Shown in pieces: positions 9,972 to 23,153 of a stretch of 52,423 nucleotides of DNA. Numbering within the stretch: the first letter of the stretch is position 1; each line of letters opens with the position of its first letter. Position numbers and translations under genes: made by a program. The notes under the pieces were generated by a model. The model did not search any database and was not told the origin of the DNA. It saw only the letters and a program-made list of their open reading frames with translations. This stretch comes from Chloroflexota bacterium (GTDB taxonomy: Bacteria; Chloroflexota; Dehalococcoidia; Lucifugimonadales; Lucifugimonadaceae): the NCBI GenBank assembly GCA_024275195.1, contig JAJRZP010000118.1, positions 1 through 52,423 of the forward strand, read 5' to 3'.

Positions 9972-10127
9972 ACCGCTTGTCTGGTCGTCGGAATACTGTT
10001 GCTGTAGTAGATAAATTTGAACCGGTCAGGTCGGGCGTTCACTCTCGTGCGTGCGCTCAATGCTGTTCTCCCATCCGATACAAGTGAGTTCAGGGAAAAA
10101 GATCAGGCCATGAGGAGCATCCGAGAG

Positions 10128-10859
10128 ATGATCACGAACAAGCTGGAAGCATGTGATGCCCGGCAGCAGCGCGGAATAACTGGACTGGAAACAGCAATCA
10201 TCTTGATTGCGTTTGTTGTAGTTGCTTCCGTATTTTCGTTCACAGTTCTGTCGACTGGCGTGTTCGCATCCGAGCGATCGAAAGAAACCGTCTATGCCGG
10301 GCTGGAGGAAGCTAAGAGCTCACTCGAACCCCGCGGCAGCGTCATCGCCTTTAAAGGGCGCGCAGGTACAACGACCGCTGACGACACAATATTTAAGATT
10401 CAGTTCGTTCTTTCTAACGCCATCGCGGGCGAATCGGTTGATTTGACCCCTCCTTATACGCTGGATGATTCTGGAACCGACCCGGACATCTCGTCAGGTG
10501 CTGAGTACAAAACTGTCATTTCATTTCAGGATAAGAACCAGTACCTTTCGGACGTACCCTGGACAATCGAACTGTTAGGACAGTCGTCAGGTGACTTCTT
10601 GCTGGAACAGGGTGAAAAAGCGGAAATCACAGTCTGGCTGCTGCAGCGACTAACCGGCGTGTCCGACCCACTCTCCAACAACGGCGTGGCAAGGTACTCA
10701 GCTTCCGATGTGAATGGCAGTAACGGAATTTTGACAACAGGGACGCTACTGAATGTGAACGACCAGTTCACTCTCGAGGTAAAGCCCGGAAGTGGTTCAA
10801 CTCTGGCAATCCAGCGAACTACACCGGCCCGACTCGATGCCGTTATGGATCTGAAGTAA
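10128..10859 (+). CDS. arlB: Archaellin 1 (archaeal-type flagellin)
   Basis: A class III signal peptide protein forming archaellum filament. After a short basic leader ending QQRG, the mature N-terminus begins ITGLETAIILIAFVVVAS, with Glu at +5 and a 20-residue hydrophobic helix. Cleavage by a preflagellin/type IV prepilin peptidase is expected between Gly and Ile. The remaining 200 residues are a Thr/Asp-rich beta domain ending LTIQRTTPARLDAVMDLK-like. The ATG at 10128 has GAGGAG 10 nt upstream and gives a 16-residue leader; an ATG at 10110 is possible. It is the most divergent of the six paralogues at the N-terminus (VFSFTVLSTGVF) and lacks the hairpin leader of copies 3-6. Confidence 0.88.
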   Translation: MITNKLEACDARQQRGITGLETAIILIAFVVVASVFSFTVLSTGVFASERSKETVYAGLEEAKSSLEPRGSVIAFKGRAGTTTADDTIFKIQFVLSNAIAGESVDLTPPYTLDDSGTDPDISSGAEYKTVISFQDKNQYLSDVPWTIELLGQSSGDFLLEQGEKAEITVWLLQRLTGVSDPLSNNGVARYSASDVNGSNGILTTGTLLNVNDQFTLEVKPGSGSTLAIQRTTPARLDAVMDLK

Positions 10860-10927
10860 CACTCGATAATCTTGAGAATCGTGCACTCGGCCAGTGGTTA
10901 CTCGCTGGTCGTTTGTCGTTAAAAGTA

Positions 10928-10943
10928 TTGGTGTCTACCCACC
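10928..10943 (+). promoter_or_regulatory. Archaellin upstream box 2
   Basis: TTGGTGTCTACCCACC lies 159 bp before archaellin 2. It keeps TTGGWG and CYCA but not the final AAT, so it is the weakest copy of the shared box. Confidence 0.4.
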
Positions 10944-11086
10944 TGAGATTGTGTGCCGTCCGACCGACTGCCAATTCCACAGTCTCTAACGTTTTATTAC
11001 AGGAGAGGTCTCATCAGGCACTGGCGCAAGTGGCGGTTCTTGGTGATTCCAGAAGACCAATTACGAGAACGAGGGGGACCGCAGAA

Positions 11087-11797
11087 ATGCTGTTCATTAA
11101 AGACTCGAAGGCAGGCACGCAAAGAGGGATCACCGGTCTTGAGACCGCTATCATCCTCATCGCCTTCGTTGTTGTGGCATCGGTATTCGCATTTACGGTT
11201 CTCTCAACAGGTATCTTTGCCTCTGAGCGATCCAAGGAGACTGTATTCGCAGGACTCGAAGAAGCGAAGAGCTCGATCGAGCCACGTGGATCAGTTATCG
11301 CCTACAAGGCAAATCGTGGTGGTACGGATACCATCTACAAAGTTTCGTGGGTCGTATCGAACGCAGTTGCCGGTGAACCGGTCGATCTGACACCACCATA
11401 CTCTGAAGGCGGTTCTGGAACCGACCCGGACATCGTATCCAATGCAGAGTACAAGACTGTCATCTCGTTTACGGACATCAATCAGCATCTGCCAGATGTG
11501 CCGTGGACCGTATCTTGGATTGGCAATGACAATGCGGACAATCTTCTCGAAGAGGGTGAAAAGGCAGAGATCACCGTTTGGTTGCTCACGCGGGCAACTG
11601 GAACCGCTATTACAGATGGAGCCTCCACCGGTTACTGGACAGCCGACTCTAATGGATCTTACGGCATACTCTCGACGGGTACGTTGATCGGCACGAACGA
11701 TCAGTTCACTCTTGAGATGAAGCCGGACAGTGGAGCGGTATTGACCATTCAACGAACAGCTCCGTCAAGGCTCGATACGATCATGGATCTCAAATAG
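11087..11797 (+). CDS. arlB: Archaellin 2
   Basis: A 236-residue archaellin. I chose the ATG at 11087 because GAGGGGG lies 9-10 bp upstream and because it gives a 14-residue leader (ending TQRG), the same length as in archaellins 3-6. The mature part starts ITGLETAIILIAFVVVAS; the next 35 residues (VLSTGIFASERSKETVF) are nearly identical to copies 3-6. The middle varies, with DNLLEEGEKAEITVWLL a shared block and GTNDQFTLEMKP near the end. The variable segment between (around residues 165-195) is where the paralogues differ most in length and sequence. A terminator follows 23 bp after the stop. Confidence 0.9.
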   Translation: MLFIKDSKAGTQRGITGLETAIILIAFVVVASVFAFTVLSTGIFASERSKETVFAGLEEAKSSIEPRGSVIAYKANRGGTDTIYKVSWVVSNAVAGEPVDLTPPYSEGGSGTDPDIVSNAEYKTVISFTDINQHLPDVPWTVSWIGNDNADNLLEEGEKAEITVWLLTRATGTAITDGASTGYWTADSNGSYGILSTGTLIGTNDQFTLEMKPDSGAVLTIQRTAPSRLDTIMDLK

Positions 11798-11820
11798 GTT
11801 CTGAAGTTTTATCGATTTCA

Positions 11821-11852
11821 AAAACAGCCATCGGGGTTCCGGTGGCTGTTTT
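11821..11852 (+). terminator. Terminator after archaellin 2
   Basis: A 14-bp stem: AAAACAGCCA plus TCGG pairs with CCGG plus TGGCTGTTTT, loop GGTT, ending in a T run. The same hairpin, with different loops, follows archaellins 3, 4 and 5. Confidence 0.8.
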
Positions 11853-11888
11853 GCGTAGCGACTCGTGAGAGCTACCCGTCCCCTCACG

Positions 11889-11904
11889 TTGGAGCCAACT
11901 CAAT
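11889..11904 (+). promoter_or_regulatory. Archaellin upstream box 3
   Basis: TTGGAGCCAACTCAAT, 162 bp before archaellin 3; a full match to TTGGWG-N4-CYCAAT. A second partly conserved block, CATAAC, follows after 17-18 bp. Confidence 0.5.
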
Positions 11905-11968
11905 ACCCCAGGTATTCCGCTGGTCATAACTTTGTATGCATAGCTGCGATGACTGTTGCTCAGTGCAA

Positions 11969-12050
11969 AGCCAGAACTGGTAAACGGAAGCAGTATTGAG
12001 GAAGACCAACTGGCTGCCGTCAGAAATGACGGAAATTAGGAGACATATAA
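11969..12050 (+). ncRNA. Structured archaellin leader RNA, copy 3
   Basis: 5' leader of archaellin 3. Stem 1 pairs AGCCAG (11969-11974) with CTGGCT (12010-12015) and encloses the conserved loop TTGAGGAAGACCA. Stem 2 is CCGTCA-GAAA-TGACGG (12017-12032), a perfect stem with a GNRA-type tetraloop. TTAGGAG (ribosome-binding site) follows 3 nt later. Both stems are kept with different bases in copies 4-6. Confidence 0.6.
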
Positions 12051-12782
12051 ATGCTTACGCACAACTTCGGTACGCCGAAGAACGAAAAGGGTATTACCGG
12101 TCTTGAGACCGCCATCATCCTTATCGCATTCGTGGTCGTTGCATCGGTATTTGCATTCACGGTTCTCTCGACAGGTATCTTTGCCTCAGAGCGTTCCAAG
12201 GAAACCGTATTCGCCGGACTCGAAGAAGCGAAGAGCTCGATTGAGCCACGTGGTTCAGTGATTGCATACAAGGGTCGTGTTGACACAACGACAGCAACCG
12301 ACACCGTCTACAAAGTTTCTTTTGTAATATCGAATGCGGTAGCTGGAGAGCCAGTTGACCTGACACCGCCGTACACCACGAACGACGCAGCGAGCGATCC
12401 AGACCTCGTGTCAAGCGCCGAGTACAAGACAGTAGTCTCGTACATCGACCAGAACCAGTTCTTGTCTGACGTTCCGTGGACAGTTTCCTGGATCGGAAAC
12501 AGCAACTCGGACAACCTCCTCGAAGAGGGTGAGAAGGCAGAAGTAACTGTTTGGCTGTTGAGACGTGACTTTGACGCTCAGGCTACTGACCCGACTGCCA
12601 ATAACGGTGTCGATTACTGGGCCGCAGCCGATGTCAATGGCTCGCGCGGTATGCTCTCCACCGACACCATCATCGGCACGAACGACCAGTTCACCATCGA
12701 AGTAAAGCCCGAAAGCGGCGCTGTGTTGACTATTCAGCGAACTGCACCTTCGAGGCTCGATACGATCATGGATCTCAAATAG
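12051..12782 (+). CDS. arlB: Archaellin 3
   Basis: A 243-residue archaellin with a 14-residue leader ending EKG and a mature start of ITGLETAIILIAFVVVAS. It shares the conserved helix and the ASERSKETVFAGLEEAKSS region with copies 2 and 4-6. The globular part has DNLLEEGEKAEVTVWLL followed by a variable loop (FDAQATDPTANNG) that is longer than in copy 2 and similar to copy 4. It ends in the common SGAVLTIQRTAPSRLD block. The ATG at 12051 has TTAGGAG 9 bp upstream. With box, leader and terminator of its own it looks like an independent transcription unit. Confidence 0.92.
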   Translation: MLTHNFGTPKNEKGITGLETAIILIAFVVVASVFAFTVLSTGIFASERSKETVFAGLEEAKSSIEPRGSVIAYKGRVDTTTATDTVYKVSFVISNAVAGEPVDLTPPYTTNDAASDPDLVSSAEYKTVVSYIDQNQFLSDVPWTVSWIGNSNSDNLLEEGEKAEVTVWLLRRDFDAQATDPTANNGVDYWAAADVNGSRGMLSTDTIIGTNDQFTIEVKPESGAVLTIQRTAPSRLDTIMDLK

Positions 12783-12805
12783 GTTCTGAAATCGATAGAA
12801 CTTCA

Positions 12806-12836
12806 GAAACAGCCACCGGGTTTCCGGTGGCTGTTT
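12806..12836 (+). terminator. Terminator after archaellin 3
   Basis: AAACAGCCACCGG pairs with CCGGTGGCTGTTT around a GTTT loop, ending TTTT. It is a variant of the shared archaellin terminator. Confidence 0.8.
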
Positions 12837-12873
12837 TGCGTAGCGACTCGTGAGAGCTACCCGACCTCTCGTG

Positions 12874-12889
12874 TTGGAGTCAACTCAAT
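12874..12889 (+). promoter_or_regulatory. Archaellin upstream box 4
   Basis: TTGGAGTCAACTCAAT, 163 bp before archaellin 4. It is followed by ACCCCGGAGTT and, 17-18 bp beyond the box, by GCCATACC, shared with copy 5. Confidence 0.5.
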
Positions 12890-12953
12890 ACCCCGGAGTT
12901 ATTTCTCGCCATACCTTTATGTAAACGGCTGTGCCGAATTCCGTGAAGCATCT

Positions 12954-13036
12954 GGTCAGAGCGACACACTGGCATCAGCAATGAGGAAGACCATTCTGAC
13001 CTCGTCCATATCGGACGGAAATTAGGAGATACGTAA
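12954..13036 (+). ncRNA. Structured archaellin leader RNA, copy 4
   Basis: Stem 1 pairs GGTCAGA (12954-12960) with TCTGACC (12995-13001); the loop holds ATGAGGAAGACCA. Stem 2 is CGTCC-ATATC-GGACG (13003-13017), with an added T-G pair at its base. AGGAG follows. The leader is almost identical over about 140 bp to copy 5. Confidence 0.6.
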
Positions 13037-13759
13037 ATGTTTACGCACAACTACGGTACGCCTAAAAGCGAAAAGGGAATAACCGGTCTTGAGACCGCGA
13101 TCATTCTCATCGCATTCGTAGTCGTAGCCTCGGTGTTTGCTTTCACGGTTCTCTCGACAGGTATCTTTGCCTCAGAGCGTTCCAAAGAAACTGTATTCGC
13201 CGGGCTCGAAGAAGCAAAGAGTTCGATAGAACCACGCGGCTCGGTTATTGCCTACAAGGGCAACGATGGCACCAACGACACGATCTACAAGATCTCGTTT
13301 GTGGTCTCCAACGCGGTTGCAGGAGAGCCAGTTGATCTGACTCCGCCTTACAACACAGATGACTCACTCACAGATCCAGACATTGTGGCAAGTGCCGAGT
13401 ACAAGACAGTAATCTCGTACATCGACCAGAACCAGTTCTTGTCTGACGTTCCTTGGACAGTTTCCTGGGTTGGAAACAGCAACTCGGATAACCTCCTCGA
13501 AGCGGGTGAGAAGGCAGAGGTAACTGTCTGGCTGCTTACACGTGACTTTTCAACTCAGGCCAGTGATCCAACGGCGACTGGCGGTGTCGAGTTCTACCCA
13601 TACGCCGACACGAACGGCGCACGCGGTATGTTGTCGTCCGACACAGTCATCACTACGAATGACCAGTTCACTGTCGAGATGAAGCCCGAAAGCGGCGCTG
13701 TGTTGACTATTCAGCGAACTGCACCTTCGAGACTCGATACGATCATGGATCTCAAATAG
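13037..13759 (+). CDS. arlB: Archaellin 4
   Basis: A 240-residue archaellin, leader MFTHNYGTPKSEKG then ITGLETAIILIAF. The globular domain is closest to archaellin 3 (QNQFLSDVPWTVSW and SNSDNLLE shared) and differs mainly in the segment after position 165 (FSTQASDPTATGG...PYADTNGARG). The ending is SGAVLTIQRTAPSRLD. The ATG at 13037 follows AGGAG by 7-8 bp. It is flanked by its own box, leader and terminator. Near identity of the leader DNA with that of copy 5 points to recent duplication or gene conversion. Confidence 0.92.
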   Translation: MFTHNYGTPKSEKGITGLETAIILIAFVVVASVFAFTVLSTGIFASERSKETVFAGLEEAKSSIEPRGSVIAYKGNDGTNDTIYKISFVVSNAVAGEPVDLTPPYNTDDSLTDPDIVASAEYKTVISYIDQNQFLSDVPWTVSWVGNSNSDNLLEAGEKAEVTVWLLTRDFSTQASDPTATGGVEFYPYADTNGARGMLSSDTVITTNDQFTVEMKPESGAVLTIQRTAPSRLDTIMDLK

Positions 13760-13782
13760 GTTCTGAAATCGATAGAACTTCA

Positions 13783-13814
13783 GAAACAGCCACCGGAAAC
13801 CCGGTGGCTGTTTC
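13783..13814 (+). terminator. Terminator after archaellin 4
   Basis: GAAACAGCCACCGG pairs with CCGGTGGCTGTTTC around AAAC; a perfect 14-bp stem. The T run is shorter than in copies 2 and 3, so termination may be leaky. Confidence 0.75.
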
Positions 13815-13850
13815 TATTAACACAGTGTGTGGGCTACCCGCCCCCACGGC

Positions 13851-13866
13851 TTGGAGTGGTCTCAAT
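13851..13866 (+). promoter_or_regulatory. Archaellin upstream box 5
   Basis: TTGGAGTGGTCTCAAT, 163 bp before archaellin 5, with GCCATACC downstream as in copy 4. Confidence 0.5.
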
Positions 13867-13930
13867 ATCCCGGAGTTCCTGCTCGCCATACCTTTATGTA
13901 AACGGCTGTGCCGAATTCCGTGAAGCATCT

Positions 13931-14013
13931 GGTCAGAGCGACACACTGGCATCAGCAATGAGGAAGACCATTCTGACCCCGTCCATATCGGACGGAAATT
14001 AGGAGATACGTAA
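13931..14013 (+). ncRNA. Structured archaellin leader RNA, copy 5
   Basis: Stem 1 GGTCAGA (13931-13937) with TCTGACC (13972-13978); stem 2 CCGTCC (13979-13984) with GGACGG (13990-13995). Across about 140 bp I see one difference from copy 4, a T to C change that turns the basal T-G pair of stem 2 into C-G, so pairing is kept. Confidence 0.6.
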
Positions 14014-14730
14014 ATGTTTACGCACGCCTTCGGCTCGCCGAAGAACGAAAAGGGAATAACCGGTCTTGAGACCGCGATCATTCTCATCGCATTCGTAGTC
14101 GTAGCCTCGGTGTTTGCTTTCACGGTTCTCTCGACAGGTATCTTTGCCTCTGAGCGTTCCAAAGAAACTGTATTCGCCGGACTCGAAGAAGCAAAAAGCT
14201 CGATCGAACCACGCGGCTCGGTTATTGCCTACAAGGGCAGAGTCGGTTCGACAGAAACAATTTTCAAAGTGGAATTCGTCGTGTCTAACGCCGTTGCCGG
14301 TGAGCCTGTCGATTTGACAGCTCCTTACACCGAAGGCGGAACGGGCACAGATCCAGATATTGTTTCGAACGCCGAATACAAAACTGTGATTTCGTACACA
14401 GACCAGAACCAGTATCTTCCAGACGTACCCTGGTCACTTGATTGGGTAGGTAACGATAACGGCGACAGTCTGTTGGAAGCGGGCGAGAAGGCTGAAATAA
14501 CCGTTTGGCTTCTTGAGCGAAACACCGGCACAGCGATTGGTTCTGATGACAGTGTGGGCGAATACGCGGCGGCAGACGGAAACGGTTCATCAGGCATTCT
14601 GAATACTGGCGGCACGCTCATTGGCACGAACGACCAGTTCACTATCGAAATGAAGCCCACCAGCGGTGCGGTGCTGACTATTCAGCGAACTGCTCCCTCA
14701 AGGCTCGACACGGTCATGGATCTGAAGTAG
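14014..14730 (+). CDS. arlB: Archaellin 5
   Basis: A 238-residue archaellin, leader MFTHAFGSPKNEKG. The N-terminal helix block matches copies 3, 4 and 6. The globular half is closer to archaellin 6 than to 4: QNQYLPDVPWSLDWVGN and the KPTSGAVLTIQ ending are shared with 6. The variable insert (NTGTAIGSDDSVGEYAAADG) is distinctive. So its leader DNA groups with copy 4 while its C-terminal half groups with copy 6, a mosaic pattern expected from recombination between tandem copies. The ATG at 14014 follows AGGAG. Confidence 0.92.
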   Translation: MFTHAFGSPKNEKGITGLETAIILIAFVVVASVFAFTVLSTGIFASERSKETVFAGLEEAKSSIEPRGSVIAYKGRVGSTETIFKVEFVVSNAVAGEPVDLTAPYTEGGTGTDPDIVSNAEYKTVISYTDQNQYLPDVPWSLDWVGNDNGDSLLEAGEKAEITVWLLERNTGTAIGSDDSVGEYAAADGNGSSGILNTGGTLIGTNDQFTIEMKPTSGAVLTIQRTAPSRLDTVMDLK

Positions 14731-14755
14731 TTCCTGACCTCAACTAGGAACACAT

Positions 14756-14788
14756 GAAACAGCCACCGTGATTACGGTGGCTGTTTTC
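14756..14788 (+). terminator. Terminator after archaellin 5
   Basis: GAAACAGCCACCGT pairs with ACGGTGGCTGTTTTC around GATT. The stem matches the other archaellin terminators, with the apical bases changed in a paired way (CCGT/ACGG against CCGG/CCGG). Confidence 0.8.
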
Positions 14789-14823
14789 GTATAGGTCGTA
14801 TGTGGGTTTCCACACCCCAATCG

Positions 14824-14839
14824 TTGGAGTGCCCCCAAT
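14824..14839 (+). promoter_or_regulatory. Archaellin upstream box 6
   Basis: TTGGAGTGCCCCCAAT, 161 bp before archaellin 6. It has TTGG-N7-CCAA, the clearest palindrome among the six copies. Confidence 0.5.
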
Positions 14840-14901
14840 GTTGGAATCCGCTGTTTCCCAATAGTTTATAAGCATGGCTGATTTAACTGGCCGAGTAACA
14901 C

Positions 14902-14984
14902 GGTTAGCAACTCGATACCAGAGCAGCAAATGAGGATGACCTGCTGACCTCGCCTATCCGGCGATAACTAGGAGATAGTCACAA
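14902..14984 (+). ncRNA. Structured archaellin leader RNA, copy 6
   Basis: Stem 1 pairs GGTTAGCA (14902-14909) with TGCTGACC (14942-14949), one G-T pair; the loop holds AATGAGGATGACC. Stem 2 is TCGCC-TATCC-GGCGA (14950-14964). AGGAG follows 6 nt later. Bases differ from copies 3-5 but both stems remain. Confidence 0.6.
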
Positions 14985-15710
14985 ATGTTTACGCACAACT
15001 ACGGTACGCCTAATAGCGAAAAGGGAATCACCGGTCTTGAGACCGCGATCATTCTCATCGCATTCGTAGTCGTAGCCTCAGTGTTTGCTTTCACGGTTCT
15101 CTCGACAGGTATCTTTGCCTCTGAGCGTTCCAAAGAGACGGTATTTGCCGGGCTCGAAGAAGCGAAGAGCTCAATTGAGCCACGTGGATCAGTCATTGCC
15201 TACAAGGGCCGCGTGGACACCACAAGCGCTACTGACACGATCTACAAAGTCGTCTTTGTAGTATCTAACGCGGTTGCCGGTGAACCTGTCGACCTGACAG
15301 CTCCGTACACCACCGATGGATCGGGGACAGACCCTGACATTGTCTCAAATGCTGAGTACAAGACCGTAATCTCGTACACCGACAGCAACCAGTATCTTGC
15401 AGACGTCCCCTGGTCACTCGACTGGGTCGGCAACTCCAACTCGGACAGCTTGCTTGAAGCCGGAGAGAAGGCTGAGATCACGGTGTGGTTACTCGAGCGA
15501 GCAACTGGTGTTACAAACGCTACTGACTCGAACGGCGTTGGTGGATGGGATGCCGCAGACGCCAACGGTGCCAACGGCATACTTGAAAGTGGCACGCTGA
15601 TCGGTACGAATGACCAGTTCACTATCGAGATGAAACCCACCAGTGGTGCGGTGCTTACCATTCAGCGAACTGCTCCGTCCAGACTCGATACAGTTATGGA
15701 CCTCAAGTAA
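14985..15710 (+). CDS. arlB: Archaellin 6
   Basis: The last of the six archaellins, 241 residues, leader MFTHNYGTPNSEKG and mature start ITGLETAIILIAF. It shares SNQYLADVPWSLDWVGN and the KPTSGAVLTIQ ending with archaellin 5. The variable insert is TGVTNATDSNGVGGWDAADANG. The ATG at 14985 follows AGGAG by about 9 bp. Unlike copies 2-5, it is not followed by the standard terminator but by a longer hairpin pair before the accessory genes, so some transcripts may run on into the ArlC-like genes. Confidence 0.92.
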   Translation: MFTHNYGTPNSEKGITGLETAIILIAFVVVASVFAFTVLSTGIFASERSKETVFAGLEEAKSSIEPRGSVIAYKGRVDTTSATDTIYKVVFVVSNAVAGEPVDLTAPYTTDGSGTDPDIVSNAEYKTVISYTDSNQYLADVPWSLDWVGNSNSDSLLEAGEKAEITVWLLERATGVTNATDSNGVGGWDAADANGANGILESGTLIGTNDQFTIEMKPTSGAVLTIQRTAPSRLDTVMDLK

Positions 15711-18918: not shown

Positions 18919-19626
18919 ATGGCAAACGAAGAAGGCCTCGCAAGCGTATCCACCGGTCAACCCGATCTGGATAAGAAAATGGGTGGAGGAATTCCGCTCG
19001 GCTCACTGACGCTGCTCGAAGGACAGTCAGACTCTGGAAAATCTGTGGTTTCTCAGCAACTCATCTGGGGTTCGCTGCAGTCTGGTCTTACCGTGACTTT
19101 GTTCACGACAGAAAACACCACCAAAAGCTTTCTGCGACAGATGAGCAGTTTAAACCTTGAGGTGATGGAGTTTCTGCTTCTGGGCCGGTTGAAGATCTAT
19201 CCGATCTCGGCCGGTAAACGAAAGCTCAGCGCCAAGCAAGTATTCGACACGATGGTTCGGAACATCACGCACGGCCCGCGTGTCGATCTGATCGTTGTCG
19301 ACTCCCTGACGACGTTCGTAACCCGTGGCTCCTGGGAGGATACAGCGTCTTACTTCGAGGAGTGCCAGATACTTGTCGGTGAAGCTCGAACAATAATCAA
19401 TGTGGCGTCGACCTACGCGTTCGATGACACCACCCTTGCGCGGCTGAGATCGATGTGTGATGCCCACCTGACTCTCCGTACTGAGGAAGTTGGAGATCAA
19501 CTCGTGAAAATTCTCGAGGTGGCGAAAATTCGCGGAGCTTCTAAGAACACAGGAAACATCGTCACTTTCGACATTGAGCCGGATCTCGGCATGAAAATCA
19601 TCCCGATCTCCAAGGCATCGGCATAG
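18919..19626 (+). CDS. arlH: ArlH, archaellum motor regulatory ATPase (KaiC/RecA-like)
   Basis: A 235-residue RecA-fold protein. The N-terminus has STGQPDLDKKMGGGIPLGSLTLLEG, the KaiC/ArlH opening in which a Gly-Gly-Gly-Ile-Pro turn precedes the P loop. Walker A is GQSDSGKS (residues 35-42) and Walker B is DLIVVDSLT (about 123-131). In archaea ArlH hexamers bind ATP and dock on ArlI to control assembly and rotation. The last residues (GMKIIPISKAS) match the family end. ArlI starts 9 bp after its stop. The motif set is complete, so it should bind nucleotide; catalytic Glu after strand 3 (FTTENTT) is also present. Confidence 0.93.
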   Translation: MANEEGLASVSTGQPDLDKKMGGGIPLGSLTLLEGQSDSGKSVVSQQLIWGSLQSGLTVTLFTTENTTKSFLRQMSSLNLEVMEFLLLGRLKIYPISAGKRKLSAKQVFDTMVRNITHGPRVDLIVVDSLTTFVTRGSWEDTASYFEECQILVGEARTIINVASTYAFDDTTLARLRSMCDAHLTLRTEEVGDQLVKILEVAKIRGASKNTGNIVTFDIEPDLGMKIIPISKASA

Positions 19627-19634
19627 GCATCTAG

Positions 19635-21575
19635 TTGGCAGTATTCGAACTCCCATTCAACGTCGTCGATGTAAGCGAACACGTATGTGACCGAGAGACG
19701 TGTGAGCTTGTTCAGCAACTCCCCACCGCGCTGAAGGAGGCTGCACTCTCGTACTCGTTTCTGCTTCGGTATCTTCACACGCTGCCAATTGCTGAAATAG
19801 GTATTCCCGTATACCACGAGGAGCTTGAGAAGAGCGACGGCGACGAAGAAACCCCAAACTTCATCTACAAGTCGAATACTGGCGAAATCTTCTTCCATGT
19901 ATTCCCAGATCCAGAGGGAATCCGGGACTGGTTAATCGCCATCGAGCCTTCTGTTGAGCATCCGAAGTTCCCGATGATCATGGCAGATATCGAAGAAGGC
20001 CTGATCGAATACACCAACGAGTTGGAATCAACGGAAGGCGACCAGCAACTCGCCGCAATGTTGCGTTGGACGCTCTCTCACATATTCAAGCAGCCAGTCG
20101 AAATGGACCTTGATGAAATCCTCGCCTTGCCTAAGGGGTTTCTCGGTGAAGAGATCGAAGAAGAAGAAGAAGGCCTAGCGTTATCGGGGGCAGAAGGTGA
20201 TTCTGCAACTTCGGACGAACAAAACGGTTCAACCGCGGTAGCAGTAGTGGAGAAGGTCGAGAAGACAGAGGCTAAACCCGCCAAAACGGGAGGAAAATCT
20301 GGCCTGTTCGCTCCGATCACCAAGCTATTTGGTGTTTCAAAAATCAATCTCGATATTGCCAAGAAGTACGGCTTGGATGAGGACGCCATCGAGGGGATCA
20401 AATACTCGATGGTTCGTGAAAAGGTGGGAATGGGAGTTCTTCAGCCGCTAATCAACGATCATCACATTGAAGATATCTCCTGCTCTGGCGTAGGTCAGAT
20501 ATTCGTTGAGCACAAAGTGTTCAAGTCGATGAAGTGCTCTTTCGGCTACCAGACGCACGCAGAACTCGACGAGCATGTTCTCCGCATGTCAGAGCGGATC
20601 AAGAAGCCTGTAACGTTCCGTCAGCCTGTTGTGGACGCATCTCTGCCCGATGGCTCACGTATCAACATCGTCTATGGCCAAGACGTATCTCTCCGCGGCA
20701 CGAACTACACGATCCGTAAATTCTCCGAAGAGGCCATCAGCATCATCCAGCTCTGTAAGTGGAAGTCGCTGAGTTGGGAGATGGCTGCATATCTCTCGAT
20801 CACCATCGAAGACGGCATGAACATGTTCGTGTCTGGTGAAACAGCATCAGGTAAGACAACGCTGATGAACGCCCTCTGCACGTTTATTGAACCTAACGCC
20901 AAAATCGTGTCCATCGAGGACACGGCTGAAGTAAACGTACCGCACAAAAACTGGATCAAAGAGGTAACCCGGAAGCCCAAACCCGGAGAAACCGACTCCG
21001 GAGTGGGAATGTTCGACCTACTTCGTGCTGCACTGCGTCAACGCCCAGAATTCATCATCATTGGTGAGATTCGTGGTGAGGAAGGGCTGATCGCGTTCCA
21101 GGCGATGCAGACCGGTCACCCGGTTATGGCAACCTTCCACGCGGCCTCCGTGCAAAAACTTATCCAGCGTCTCGTTGGTGACCCGATTCTTGTTCCGAAG
21201 AACTATGTCGACAACCTAAACATCGCGGTGATCCAAGTAGCCGTACGGCTGCCCGATGGCAAAATGGGGCGGCGCGCGATTGCAATCAACGAGATCGTGA
21301 ACTACGACTCTGCTGCCGATGCGTTCTCGTTCGTTGAAGTGTTCCAGTGGGACCCTGTAACCGACACATTTGAATTTACTGGCTTCAACAACAGCTACTT
21401 GCTCGAACAGATTATTGCCCCAGCCCGGGGATACCCGCCTGCCCGCAGACGCCAGATCTACTCACTTGTAAAACGGCGTGCCCGAATTCTCGAGAAACTG
21501 GCTGCGTCTGGCCTGGAGGAATATCAGGAGGTCTATCAGACGATCGCCAAGGCCATTAAGGACGGAGTGTTTTAA
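19635..21575 (+). CDS. arlI: ArlI, archaellum assembly and rotation ATPase
   Basis: A 646-residue secretion-superfamily ATPase that powers filament assembly and rotation. The N-terminal half carries an insert of low-complexity Glu/Ser/Ala/Lys (about residues 175-225) between the ArlI-specific N-domain and the core. The core has NTD2, then the P loop VSGETASGKTT (about 398-408), the Asp box around SIEDTAEVNVPH, Walker B EFIIIGEIRGEE (about 470-480) and the His box TGHPVMATFHAAS. VEHKVFKSM and HVLRMSERIKKPVTFRQP are typical of ArlI/TadA enzymes. The start is TTG at 19635. It lies between ArlH and ArlJ with 9- and 3-bp gaps. At about 100 residues longer than typical archaeal ArlI, the insert explains most of the extra size. 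Confidence 0.95.
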   Translation: MAVFELPFNVVDVSEHVCDRETCELVQQLPTALKEAALSYSFLLRYLHTLPIAEIGIPVYHEELEKSDGDEETPNFIYKSNTGEIFFHVFPDPEGIRDWLIAIEPSVEHPKFPMIMADIEEGLIEYTNELESTEGDQQLAAMLRWTLSHIFKQPVEMDLDEILALPKGFLGEEIEEEEEGLALSGAEGDSATSDEQNGSTAVAVVEKVEKTEAKPAKTGGKSGLFAPITKLFGVSKINLDIAKKYGLDEDAIEGIKYSMVREKVGMGVLQPLINDHHIEDISCSGVGQIFVEHKVFKSMKCSFGYQTHAELDEHVLRMSERIKKPVTFRQPVVDASLPDGSRINIVYGQDVSLRGTNYTIRKFSEEAISIIQLCKWKSLSWEMAAYLSITIEDGMNMFVSGETASGKTTLMNALCTFIEPNAKIVSIEDTAEVNVPHKNWIKEVTRKPKPGETDSGVGMFDLLRAALRQRPEFIIIGEIRGEEGLIAFQAMQTGHPVMATFHAASVQKLIQRLVGDPILVPKNYVDNLNIAVIQVAVRLPDGKMGRRAIAINEIVNYDSAADAFSFVEVFQWDPVTDTFEFTGFNNSYLLEQIIAPARGYPPARRRQIYSLVKRRARILEKLAASGLEEYQEVYQTIAKAIKDGVF

Positions 21576-21578
21576 GCC

Positions 21579-23153
21579 ATGGCACAGGGCATTCTCTCTC
21601 GTCTGGGTTTTAGCGACAAATCAAAGCAAGCTGCTGAAGACAATGCTCTCAGTGCAATTGAATCGCGCCCGAACGTCGATAAAAAACAGCTTGCATTCGA
21701 TCTTTTTACGCATATTTCATACATGGCGTCAATGGCTACTGCCAAGGCGTCGCGTGATGTCATGTTCCGGTACGCGGCGACGTTGAATCTTTCGTCTACT
21801 TCGTACTTTATGGACATAAACACGCTCGTGAACAGGCTGAAGTACGACTATTCAGAAGCATGTCGCGCAGTTGCCGATCGCACCAAGGAACACGACGTAT
21901 CGTCGTTGCTGCTTCGAATGTCGGGGTCTCTCGCATCCGGTGAAGATGAAGAGGAGTTTCTCACCCGTGAAGCTGCCGTGATGGCTGAGCTTTACCGGGC
22001 AACGTATGAAACCAATATCGAATCTCTACGGAAGTGGACCGACGCTTATTCAGCCATGATCGTATCGGCTGGTCTTATCGTAGTTGTTTCCATCATCTCG
22101 ATGATGATCTGGAGCCTCGGCCCGGGCATGATTCTGATGACCGGTACAGTCACCATGACTGTTGCGATCATTGGTAGTTGGACTATCTACATCGCCGCGC
22201 CCAAAGAGAACTATACGAGAACGGCCGGCCTGACCGCCACGAACCAGATAATTGCTCTAAAGCTCTTCAAGTATCTGGTTCCTGCCGGGTTTATTCTGGG
22301 CGCACTGGTAACTGTGCTAACAGGTGGGCAGTTGGGGATTGGGATGATCATTTTCGGCGTAAGTCTTCTGCCATCTGGTGTCATCATGAATCGGGATTCA
22401 AGCCGACTATTGAAACTCGATGCAGACGTCGCAACCGCAACCCGTATGCTCGGTGGTATTACCGATGCAATCGGCACTACGGTCAGTGACGCGTTGGGCA
22501 AAGTCGATAGACGTTCGCTTGGATCTCTCGAACAGTACTTCAGGCGTCTGGAAGTAAGAGTGCGATCAGGTATCACCCCTGACCGCTGTTGGGATCATCT
22601 GATCAAAGAATCTGGCTCCGAACTTATGGAGCGAACAATAAACATTTTCTGGGACGCTCTCACGATCGGTGGTAACCCGCTCGTCACCGGAAAAACTGCT
22701 GCGTTTTTCTCGGCAGAGATCTCACTATTGAGAGAAAAGCGTGCCCTCGTGGCTCAAACGTTCGGATACCTGACGGTTCCACTGCACGCCGCAATGGTTG
22801 GGCTGTTGATCTTCATCGTGAATGTCATGCAATTGTTTGCCGATACCATGTTGTCCGATACCGACTCGGTTGATCCGGGTGCCTCTGGAGCCTCGATTCC
22901 CGATATCGCGGGGTCGAGCGGGTTCAACACGTTCGCGAATGTGAACTTCGAGTTCCTGAACATAATTATCACTATGGTAGTGGTGGTTTTTACTATCGCG
23001 AATGCAGTGGCTCCATGGGCTGCAAGTGGGGGGCACCGCATGCGTGCCGGATACCAGATTGGTGTGATGATGATTGTATCGGGCGTTGCGATGACGGCTA
23101 TTCCTCCGATCTCGAGGATGATCTTCGTCACAATTTCTGCACCGGCATCCTGA
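21579..23153 (+). CDS. arlJ: ArlJ, archaellum polytopic membrane platform protein
   Basis: A 524-residue membrane protein of the T2SF/ArlJ family. Hydrophobic segments are seen at about 165-190 (MIVSAGLIVVVSIISMMIW), 190-210, 225-270, and three in the last 130 residues (MVGLLIFIVNVMQL, IIITMVVVVFTIANAVAPWA, IGVMMIVSGVAMTAIPPI). Two soluble helical domains separate them, with KTAAFFSAEISLLREKRA typical of the platform. It is the membrane scaffold on which ArlI turns. The start ATG at 21579 is 3 bp after the ArlI stop (TAAGCC), so they are probably translationally linked. Length and layout are normal for ArlJ. Confidence 0.93.
   Translation: MAQGILSRLGFSDKSKQAAEDNALSAIESRPNVDKKQLAFDLFTHISYMASMATAKASRDVMFRYAATLNLSSTSYFMDINTLVNRLKYDYSEACRAVADRTKEHDVSSLLLRMSGSLASGEDEEEFLTREAAVMAELYRATYETNIESLRKWTDAYSAMIVSAGLIVVVSIISMMIWSLGPGMILMTGTVTMTVAIIGSWTIYIAAPKENYTRTAGLTATNQIIALKLFKYLVPAGFILGALVTVLTGGQLGIGMIIFGVSLLPSGVIMNRDSSRLLKLDADVATATRMLGGITDAIGTTVSDALGKVDRRSLGSLEQYFRRLEVRVRSGITPDRCWDHLIKESGSELMERTINIFWDALTIGGNPLVTGKTAAFFSAEISLLREKRALVAQTFGYLTVPLHAAMVGLLIFIVNVMQLFADTMLSDTDSVDPGASGASIPDIAGSSGFNTFANVNFEFLNIIITMVVVVFTIANAVAPWAASGGHRMRAGYQIGVMMIVSGVAMTAIPPISRMIFVTISAPAS

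Follow-up and report, generated by a model that had tools for sequence, protein, structure and literature searches.

Comparative analysis supports a covarying, structured leader RNA in front of four of the six tandem archaellin genes (10161-15710) in the archaellum locus of a 52,423-nucleotide stretch of DNA, hereafter the window, which forms contig C98 in the 2.7-Mb genome of a marine bacterium of the genus Candidatus (Ca.) Lucifugimonas. An earlier note on this DNA had described the leaders of archaellin copies 3 to 6 as two stems set before a ribosome-binding site, and every arm of both complementary stems is indeed in place in each of the four. The architecture drawn from these stems had to be revised, however, as a long upstream hairpin (P1) had been missed and stem 1 is not a simple stem-loop. 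The apical loop of P1 contains the 5' arm of stem 1, which is therefore the helix of an H-type pseudoknot. We hold with moderate confidence that the element is a folded, cis-acting 5' leader carried by four archaellin mRNAs, each transcribed separately, and that it would regulate their translation or stability; it probably sets the amount of filament protein made. The parts of the four leaders, each with its Shine-Dalgarno (SD) region where listed and the gene that follows, are these:

11942-11994, + strand: leader 3, P1 hairpin; outer helix GCTGC 11943-11947 / GCAGT 11990-11994; the apical loop contains the 5' arm of stem 1
11969-12015, + strand: leader 3, pseudoknot helix (stem 1), AGCCAG 11969-11974 / CTGGCT 12010-12015
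11997-12007, + strand: leader 3, conserved joining-strand motif TGAGGAAGACC
12017-12032, + strand: leader 3, stem 2 hairpin CCGTCA-GAAA-TGACGG, arms 12017-12022 / 12027-12032
12038-12043, + strand: leader 3, SD-like AGGAGA, 7 bases 5' of the start codon; the SD is conserved in all leaders
12051-12782, + strand: archaellin copy 3, start codon at 12051
12927-12979, + strand: leader 4, P1 hairpin
12954-13001, + strand: leader 4, pseudoknot helix (stem 1), GGTCAG 12954-12959 / CTGACC 12996-13001, extended by A/T to seven pairs
12982-12992, + strand: leader 4, motif TGAGGAAGACC
13002-13018, + strand: leader 4, stem 2 hairpin TCGTCC-ATATC-GGACGG, arms 13002-13007 / 13013-13018
13037-13759, + strand: archaellin copy 4, Pfam Arch_flagellin
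13904-13956, + strand: leader 5, P1 hairpin
13931-13978, + strand: leader 5, pseudoknot helix (stem 1), GGTCAG 13931-13936 / CTGACC 13973-13978, with the A/T extension of leader 4
13959-13969, + strand: leader 5, motif TGAGGAAGACC
13979-13995, + strand: leader 5, stem 2 hairpin CCGTCC-ATATC-GGACGG, arms 13979-13984 / 13990-13995
14014-14730, + strand: archaellin copy 5
14876-14927, + strand: leader 6, P1 hairpin with GCTG/CAGC, CTGG/CCAG and CGAGT/ACTCG
14902-14949, + strand: leader 6, pseudoknot helix (stem 1), GGTTAG 14902-14907 / CTGACC 14944-14949, extended by CA/TG to eight pairs
14931-14941, + strand: leader 6, motif TGAGGATGACC
14950-14964, + strand: leader 6, stem 2 hairpin TCGCC-TATCC-GGCGA, arms 14950-14954 / 14960-14964
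14985-15710, + strand: archaellin copy 6

Upstream regions of archaellins in same-genus genomes revealed the leader in five further species, and a covariance model of 79 positions detected it 18 times in six of the 19 genomes of the genus. Every copy directly precedes a tandem archaellin, with three or four copies per array in five genomes and a single one in genome G006, where the contig end cuts the array. With the same model no comparable leader was found elsewhere in the genus genomes, nor in a further 57 genomes from the family; the weak family-wide matches (E 0.02-0.08) did not adjoin archaellins, and a plain motif search over the order returned scattered, uninformative matches. The leader is absent from archaellin copies 1 and 2 and from scattered single-copy archaellins. 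Ca. Lucifugimonas is so far the sole genus in which it occurs.

As MAFFT does not place stem 2 correctly in the copy-3 class, an alignment made by hand served for the tests of stems 1 and 2; 17 of its 18 rows agree exactly with the source DNA, and the remaining row is short of one tail base outside all helices. The near-identical leaders 4 and 5 were taken as one data point. All possible helices in 17 leaders were scored for compensatory change and for broken pairs. The alignments of the phylogenetic null were simulated along the leader tree, each column being given as many changes, and of the same kinds, as in the real alignment. Of the roughly 700-1600 possible helices, the two best are stems 1 and 2, in this order, and 0/200 null alignments hold any helix as good as either of them. 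The proposal that sequence differs while pairing is kept is supported by this statistical covariation test on homologous loci. In alignment A1, 95.5% of the cells are paired, compared with 87.1% upon shuffling (0/500) and 21-50% when the partners are slid. Since single-pair statistics are underpowered at 17 sequences, where no single base pair reached significance alignment-wide, the analysis turned to tests of whole helices, chimeras and permutations.

Stem 2 covaries within paralogue classes as well (permutation 103/20000). Orthologues of leader 3 carry CCGTCA/TGACGG, CCGTCT/AGACGG or CCATCC/GGATGG, and CGTCC/GGACG, CCGTT/AACGG and CCGCC/GGCGG are found in leaders of copies 4-5. Within the window, leaders 4 and 5 differ at one position over about 130 bases (T13002/C13979), and this single change turns a T-G pair into C-G, just as the earlier note had remarked. 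The two copies are nearly identical from the promoter region into the N-terminal coding part (12900-13260 / 13877-14237) and diverge farther upstream, a pattern that suggests a recent duplicate or gene conversion.

Besides stems 1 and 2, the unbiased helix scan brought two further nested helices to the surface: one joins RCUG at the leader start to CAGY 5' of the motif, and the other, variable in sequence, flanks the 5' arm of stem 1. Taken together across the aligned leaders, they are one long irregular hairpin, P1. For a chimera test, in which the stem 1 arm was masked, the 5' and 3' halves of a leader were folded with each other or with halves of different leaders. Own halves gave a mean of -13.7 kcal/mol versus -9.3 for chimeric halves (permutation 0/20000 overall, 19/20000 within paralogue classes), against shuffles the z values summed to -10.3, and the pair counts yielded 0/500; for leader 3, own-half folding reaches -14.1 kcal/mol (z -2.95 versus shuffles). 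Without any structure supplied, RNAalifold predicts P1 in its outer and apical portions, together with stem 2. The variability of the hairpin is illustrated by genome G017, which has GCUG..ACCAC..UGCUC[gcaaGGCCAGa]GGGCA..GUGGU..CAGU, and by two neighbouring L. marina copies, which have AUUCGA/UCGAAU and AUUCAG/CUGAAU. The strongest column pair of all is non-canonical: columns 25 and 82 of the class A alignment (the opening nucleotide of P1 and the one that follows CAGY) read G/A in 13 leaders and A/G in four, never mixed (E 0.58), a possible G-A/A-G pair at the foot of P1.

A loop strand of P1 pairs downstream, and both helices of this H-type pseudoknot are supported by covariation (P1 0/20000; stem 1 0/200); P1 and stem 1 would presumably form simultaneously. 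Our hand-drawn models leave about 4-8 nucleotides before and 0-5 after the loop strand, a spacing that would correspond to ordinary H-type geometry. P1 and the pseudoknot strand are connected by a conserved joining strand, AAUGAGGAWGACC. The motif GAGGAWGACC, reported previously as constant, is present in leaders 3 to 6 of the window but is exact in only 15 of the 18 homologous leaders; AGGA occurs within the motif in 16/18 and within the SD in all. Single-copy archaellins have a ribosome-binding region similar to TGAGGAWGACC (TTGAGGAGACC and TTGAGGAGCCAGACC just 5' of ATG; compared at loci L139, L198 and L140-L142, and also at 10110-10130 of the window), and the leader motif may derive from an old ribosome-binding site. 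Stem 2 begins 0-1 base after the pseudoknot strand, and the SD follows a few bases beyond, outside all covarying helices. Within the helices, 19 G-U cells stand against five A-C cells (p 0.007). A-C is what a wobble on the opposite strand would look like, so the preference for G-U points to the archaellin-sense strand as the RNA; this asymmetry and the position of the element fit a leader within the archaellin transcript.

Each leader is preceded by a terminator-like hairpin, a conserved box and an AT-rich block, so that every copy has the appearance of a separate transcription unit. These elements are:

11823-11853, + strand: terminator-like hairpin AACAGCC..GGCTGTT, 3' of archaellin copy 2, also present 5' of the leaders of relatives
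near 12808-12837, 13785-13814 and 14757-14787, + strand: counterparts of this hairpin
11922-11941, + strand: promoter-like AT-rich block CATAACTTTGTATGCAT, adjoining P1 of leader 3 and conserved in the 18-leader alignment

Counterparts of the AT-rich block precede the remaining leaders, and the block ends where P1 starts. The gene-end hairpins fall below the rule of the terminator scan (at least five T) and hence were not listed by the scanner, which found no terminator-like site within a leader. Conserved DNA comprising a GGG..CCC dyad and TTGGAGTG..CCAATACC lies 5' of each leader (11860-11925, 12850-12910, 13830-13890 and 14800-14865) and also 5' of archaellin copy 1; it is possibly a candidate activator site.

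In the mechanism that we propose, the mRNA would start at or near P1, and the pseudoknot would seal its 5' end and keep the CUGR strand off the partly complementary SD (YUAGG), so that the folded leader renders the message stable and translatable. A trans-acting factor, likelier a protein than a small molecule, might bind the joining strand and adjust archaellin output. In most leaders the downstream pseudoknot strand (S1b) has weak complementarity to the SD, and in the model the SD is, on average, somewhat more accessible with stem 1 locked into the pseudoknot. Several observations weigh against a regulatory leader of this kind. Its evidence is sequence comparison throughout; stem 1 hardly changes inside a paralogue class (within-class permutation 8151/20000) and varies between classes, so that its covariation support is between-class only; and the nested minimum-free-energy z-scores of the four window leaders are modest (-1.0 to -2.0). 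The competing S1b-SD helix shows no covariation (2464/20000). A sigma-70 consensus was looked for 5' of the leaders and none was found, which makes the start site a guess. Furthermore, in leader G017c the motif is gone along with most of stem 1, and stem 1 is weakened in leader G009c.

It is possible, if less likely in our view, that the leader acts as a passive mRNA stabiliser or translation enhancer, shielding the 5' end and keeping the SD accessible on the message of a very abundant protein, without regulation or ligand. The structure does stop just 5' of an SD that no covarying helix includes, some structure is kept in each archaellin paralogue class, and other genera have structured archaellin leaders of other layouts; a passive stem, however, would not need an unpaired joining strand that is constant nearly letter for letter across paralogues and species. 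That strand, the H-type pseudoknot and the weak complementarity between S1b and SD would suit a ligand-sensing riboswitch in which the pseudoknot is the aptamer and the downstream strand pairs alternately with the P1 loop and with the SD. This we regard as improbable, since the S1b-SD pairing does not covary, the leader is confined to archaellins of one genus with no metabolic gene association, and Rfam offers no match. We therefore favour a cis-acting leader that stabilises the message and keeps it translatable over a ligand riboswitch. More speculatively, and doubtful in our eyes, the pseudoknot could represent a new switch class that responds to a ligand or to an archaellum protein by moving its downstream strand from hairpin loop to SD and back, thereby providing feedback on the archaeal-derived filament; each archaellin class of the family may have its own independently evolved RNA device.

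Three further explanations fare worse. The inverted repeats could be operator or promoter sites for a transcription factor, given that all copies lie near a putative promoter and that other conserved upstream boxes resemble DNA sites, but the arms vary freely while pairing is kept, where a protein site on DNA would keep its letters, and the bias towards G-U over A-C adds to making this very unlikely. Control by a leader peptide read from ATG AGG AWG ACC finds some support in the ATG or TTG that stands before the motif in 15/18 leaders; this start codon is nevertheless lost in both copy-3-class copies of genome G013 (CCG) and in G017c, the A/T variation affects a second codon position, and neither stop position, frame nor peptide is conserved, so that we disfavour such an upstream open reading frame and consider it extremely unlikely. 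Just as remote is translational repression of the CsrA type, as in flagellin leaders, through the AGGA of the motif and that of the SD. Both are present in nearly all leaders, yet the csrA gene was not found in any of 37 genomes of the genus, family and order (0/37) by a search that was positive in the controls E. coli, B. subtilis and T. maritima, and this strongly disfavours CsrA control. An Hfq-dependent small RNA partner was likewise rejected, as Hfq was not found in the six leader-bearing genomes.

Membership in a known RNA family was rejected as well. No covariance-model score in the window reached the gathering threshold of any Rfam 15 family, in keeping with the earlier impression of an RNA of undescribed form; a lax search of the region gave chance-level matches on gene-end hairpins and coding sequence and none on the leaders. 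Our literature search retrieved no paper that links SAR202 to an RNA motif, and leader, untranslated-region (UTR) and transcript terms led to no description of a leader RNA in the available text of two papers on bacterial archaella (PMC10444878, PMC12488501). The leader is a new, genus-restricted pseudoknot type, and structured leaders as such are an already known kind.

The same-genus genomes include Ca. Lucifugimonas marina JH1073 (G013, complete chromosome CP046147), which places the window genome in SAR202 group I of the Chloroflexota. Downstream of the archaellins, the archaellum locus of the window encodes:

18919-19626: KaiC-like ArlH
19635-21575: T2SSE-type ATPase
21579-23153: T2SSF-type membrane protein

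The L. marina genome is described as containing six tandem archaellins (flaB copies) followed by flaGFHIJ (PMC10444878). The window has the arrangement of this cultured strain, in which four of the six archaellins carry the leader; hence the leader is open to experimental testing. Archaella in Bacteria have been reported only recently (PMC10444878, PMC12488501), a Chloroflexota archaellum having been solved in Litorilinea (PMC12488501), and in the accessible parts of both papers bacterial control over the imported filament genes is not described. If true, a conserved pseudoknot leader dedicated to the tandem archaellins would offer one of the first hints of such control, and it suggests that this control operates post-transcriptionally on which archaellin is made and how much of it.

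Archaellins of other genera provide a lead towards structured leaders more widely. Their leaders have different layouts, with both-sided changes in 6/29 and 9/34 predicted pairs (raw counts from 4-9 sequences per set), and were seen at loci L145, L150, L161 and L190 (about 125 bases 5' of the archaellin start) and at L143:5432, L144:4979, L146:7021 and L159:6976. The first four loci share GUGCAU..AUGCAC and a long GACCGGCGUC..GGCGGUC stem. The archaellin leaders at L148, L157 and L163 (genome G036 and relatives) show by eye a similar order of parts, namely a stem near a promoter-like block, a UGAGA..ACC-like motif, a hairpin and the SD; this is a resemblance only.

Among known systems, CsrA-FliW acts on the flagellin mRNA leaders of B. 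subtilis hag and C. jejuni flaA (PMC6529632, PMC4894983). Those leaders and ours are 5' leaders of filament-protein mRNAs with GGA motifs in the leader and at the SD, control being proposed in our case; ours differ in preceding archaellin genes, in the pseudoknot with its long conserved motif and in that csrA was not found. The H-type pseudoknot riboswitches of the SAM-II and preQ1 type have the SD in or beside the pseudoknot strand. They likewise use a 5' hairpin loop that pairs downstream and a conserved joining strand, whereas a second hairpin separates the SD from the pseudoknot strand in the archaellin leaders, for which Rfam gave no match even at a lax threshold. The E. coli ompA 5' UTR is an mRNA stabiliser upon which Hfq acts. 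It is without a pseudoknot, and Hfq was not found in the genomes with archaellin leaders, but in both cases stem-loops stand 5' of an open SD on the mRNA of a very abundant surface protein.

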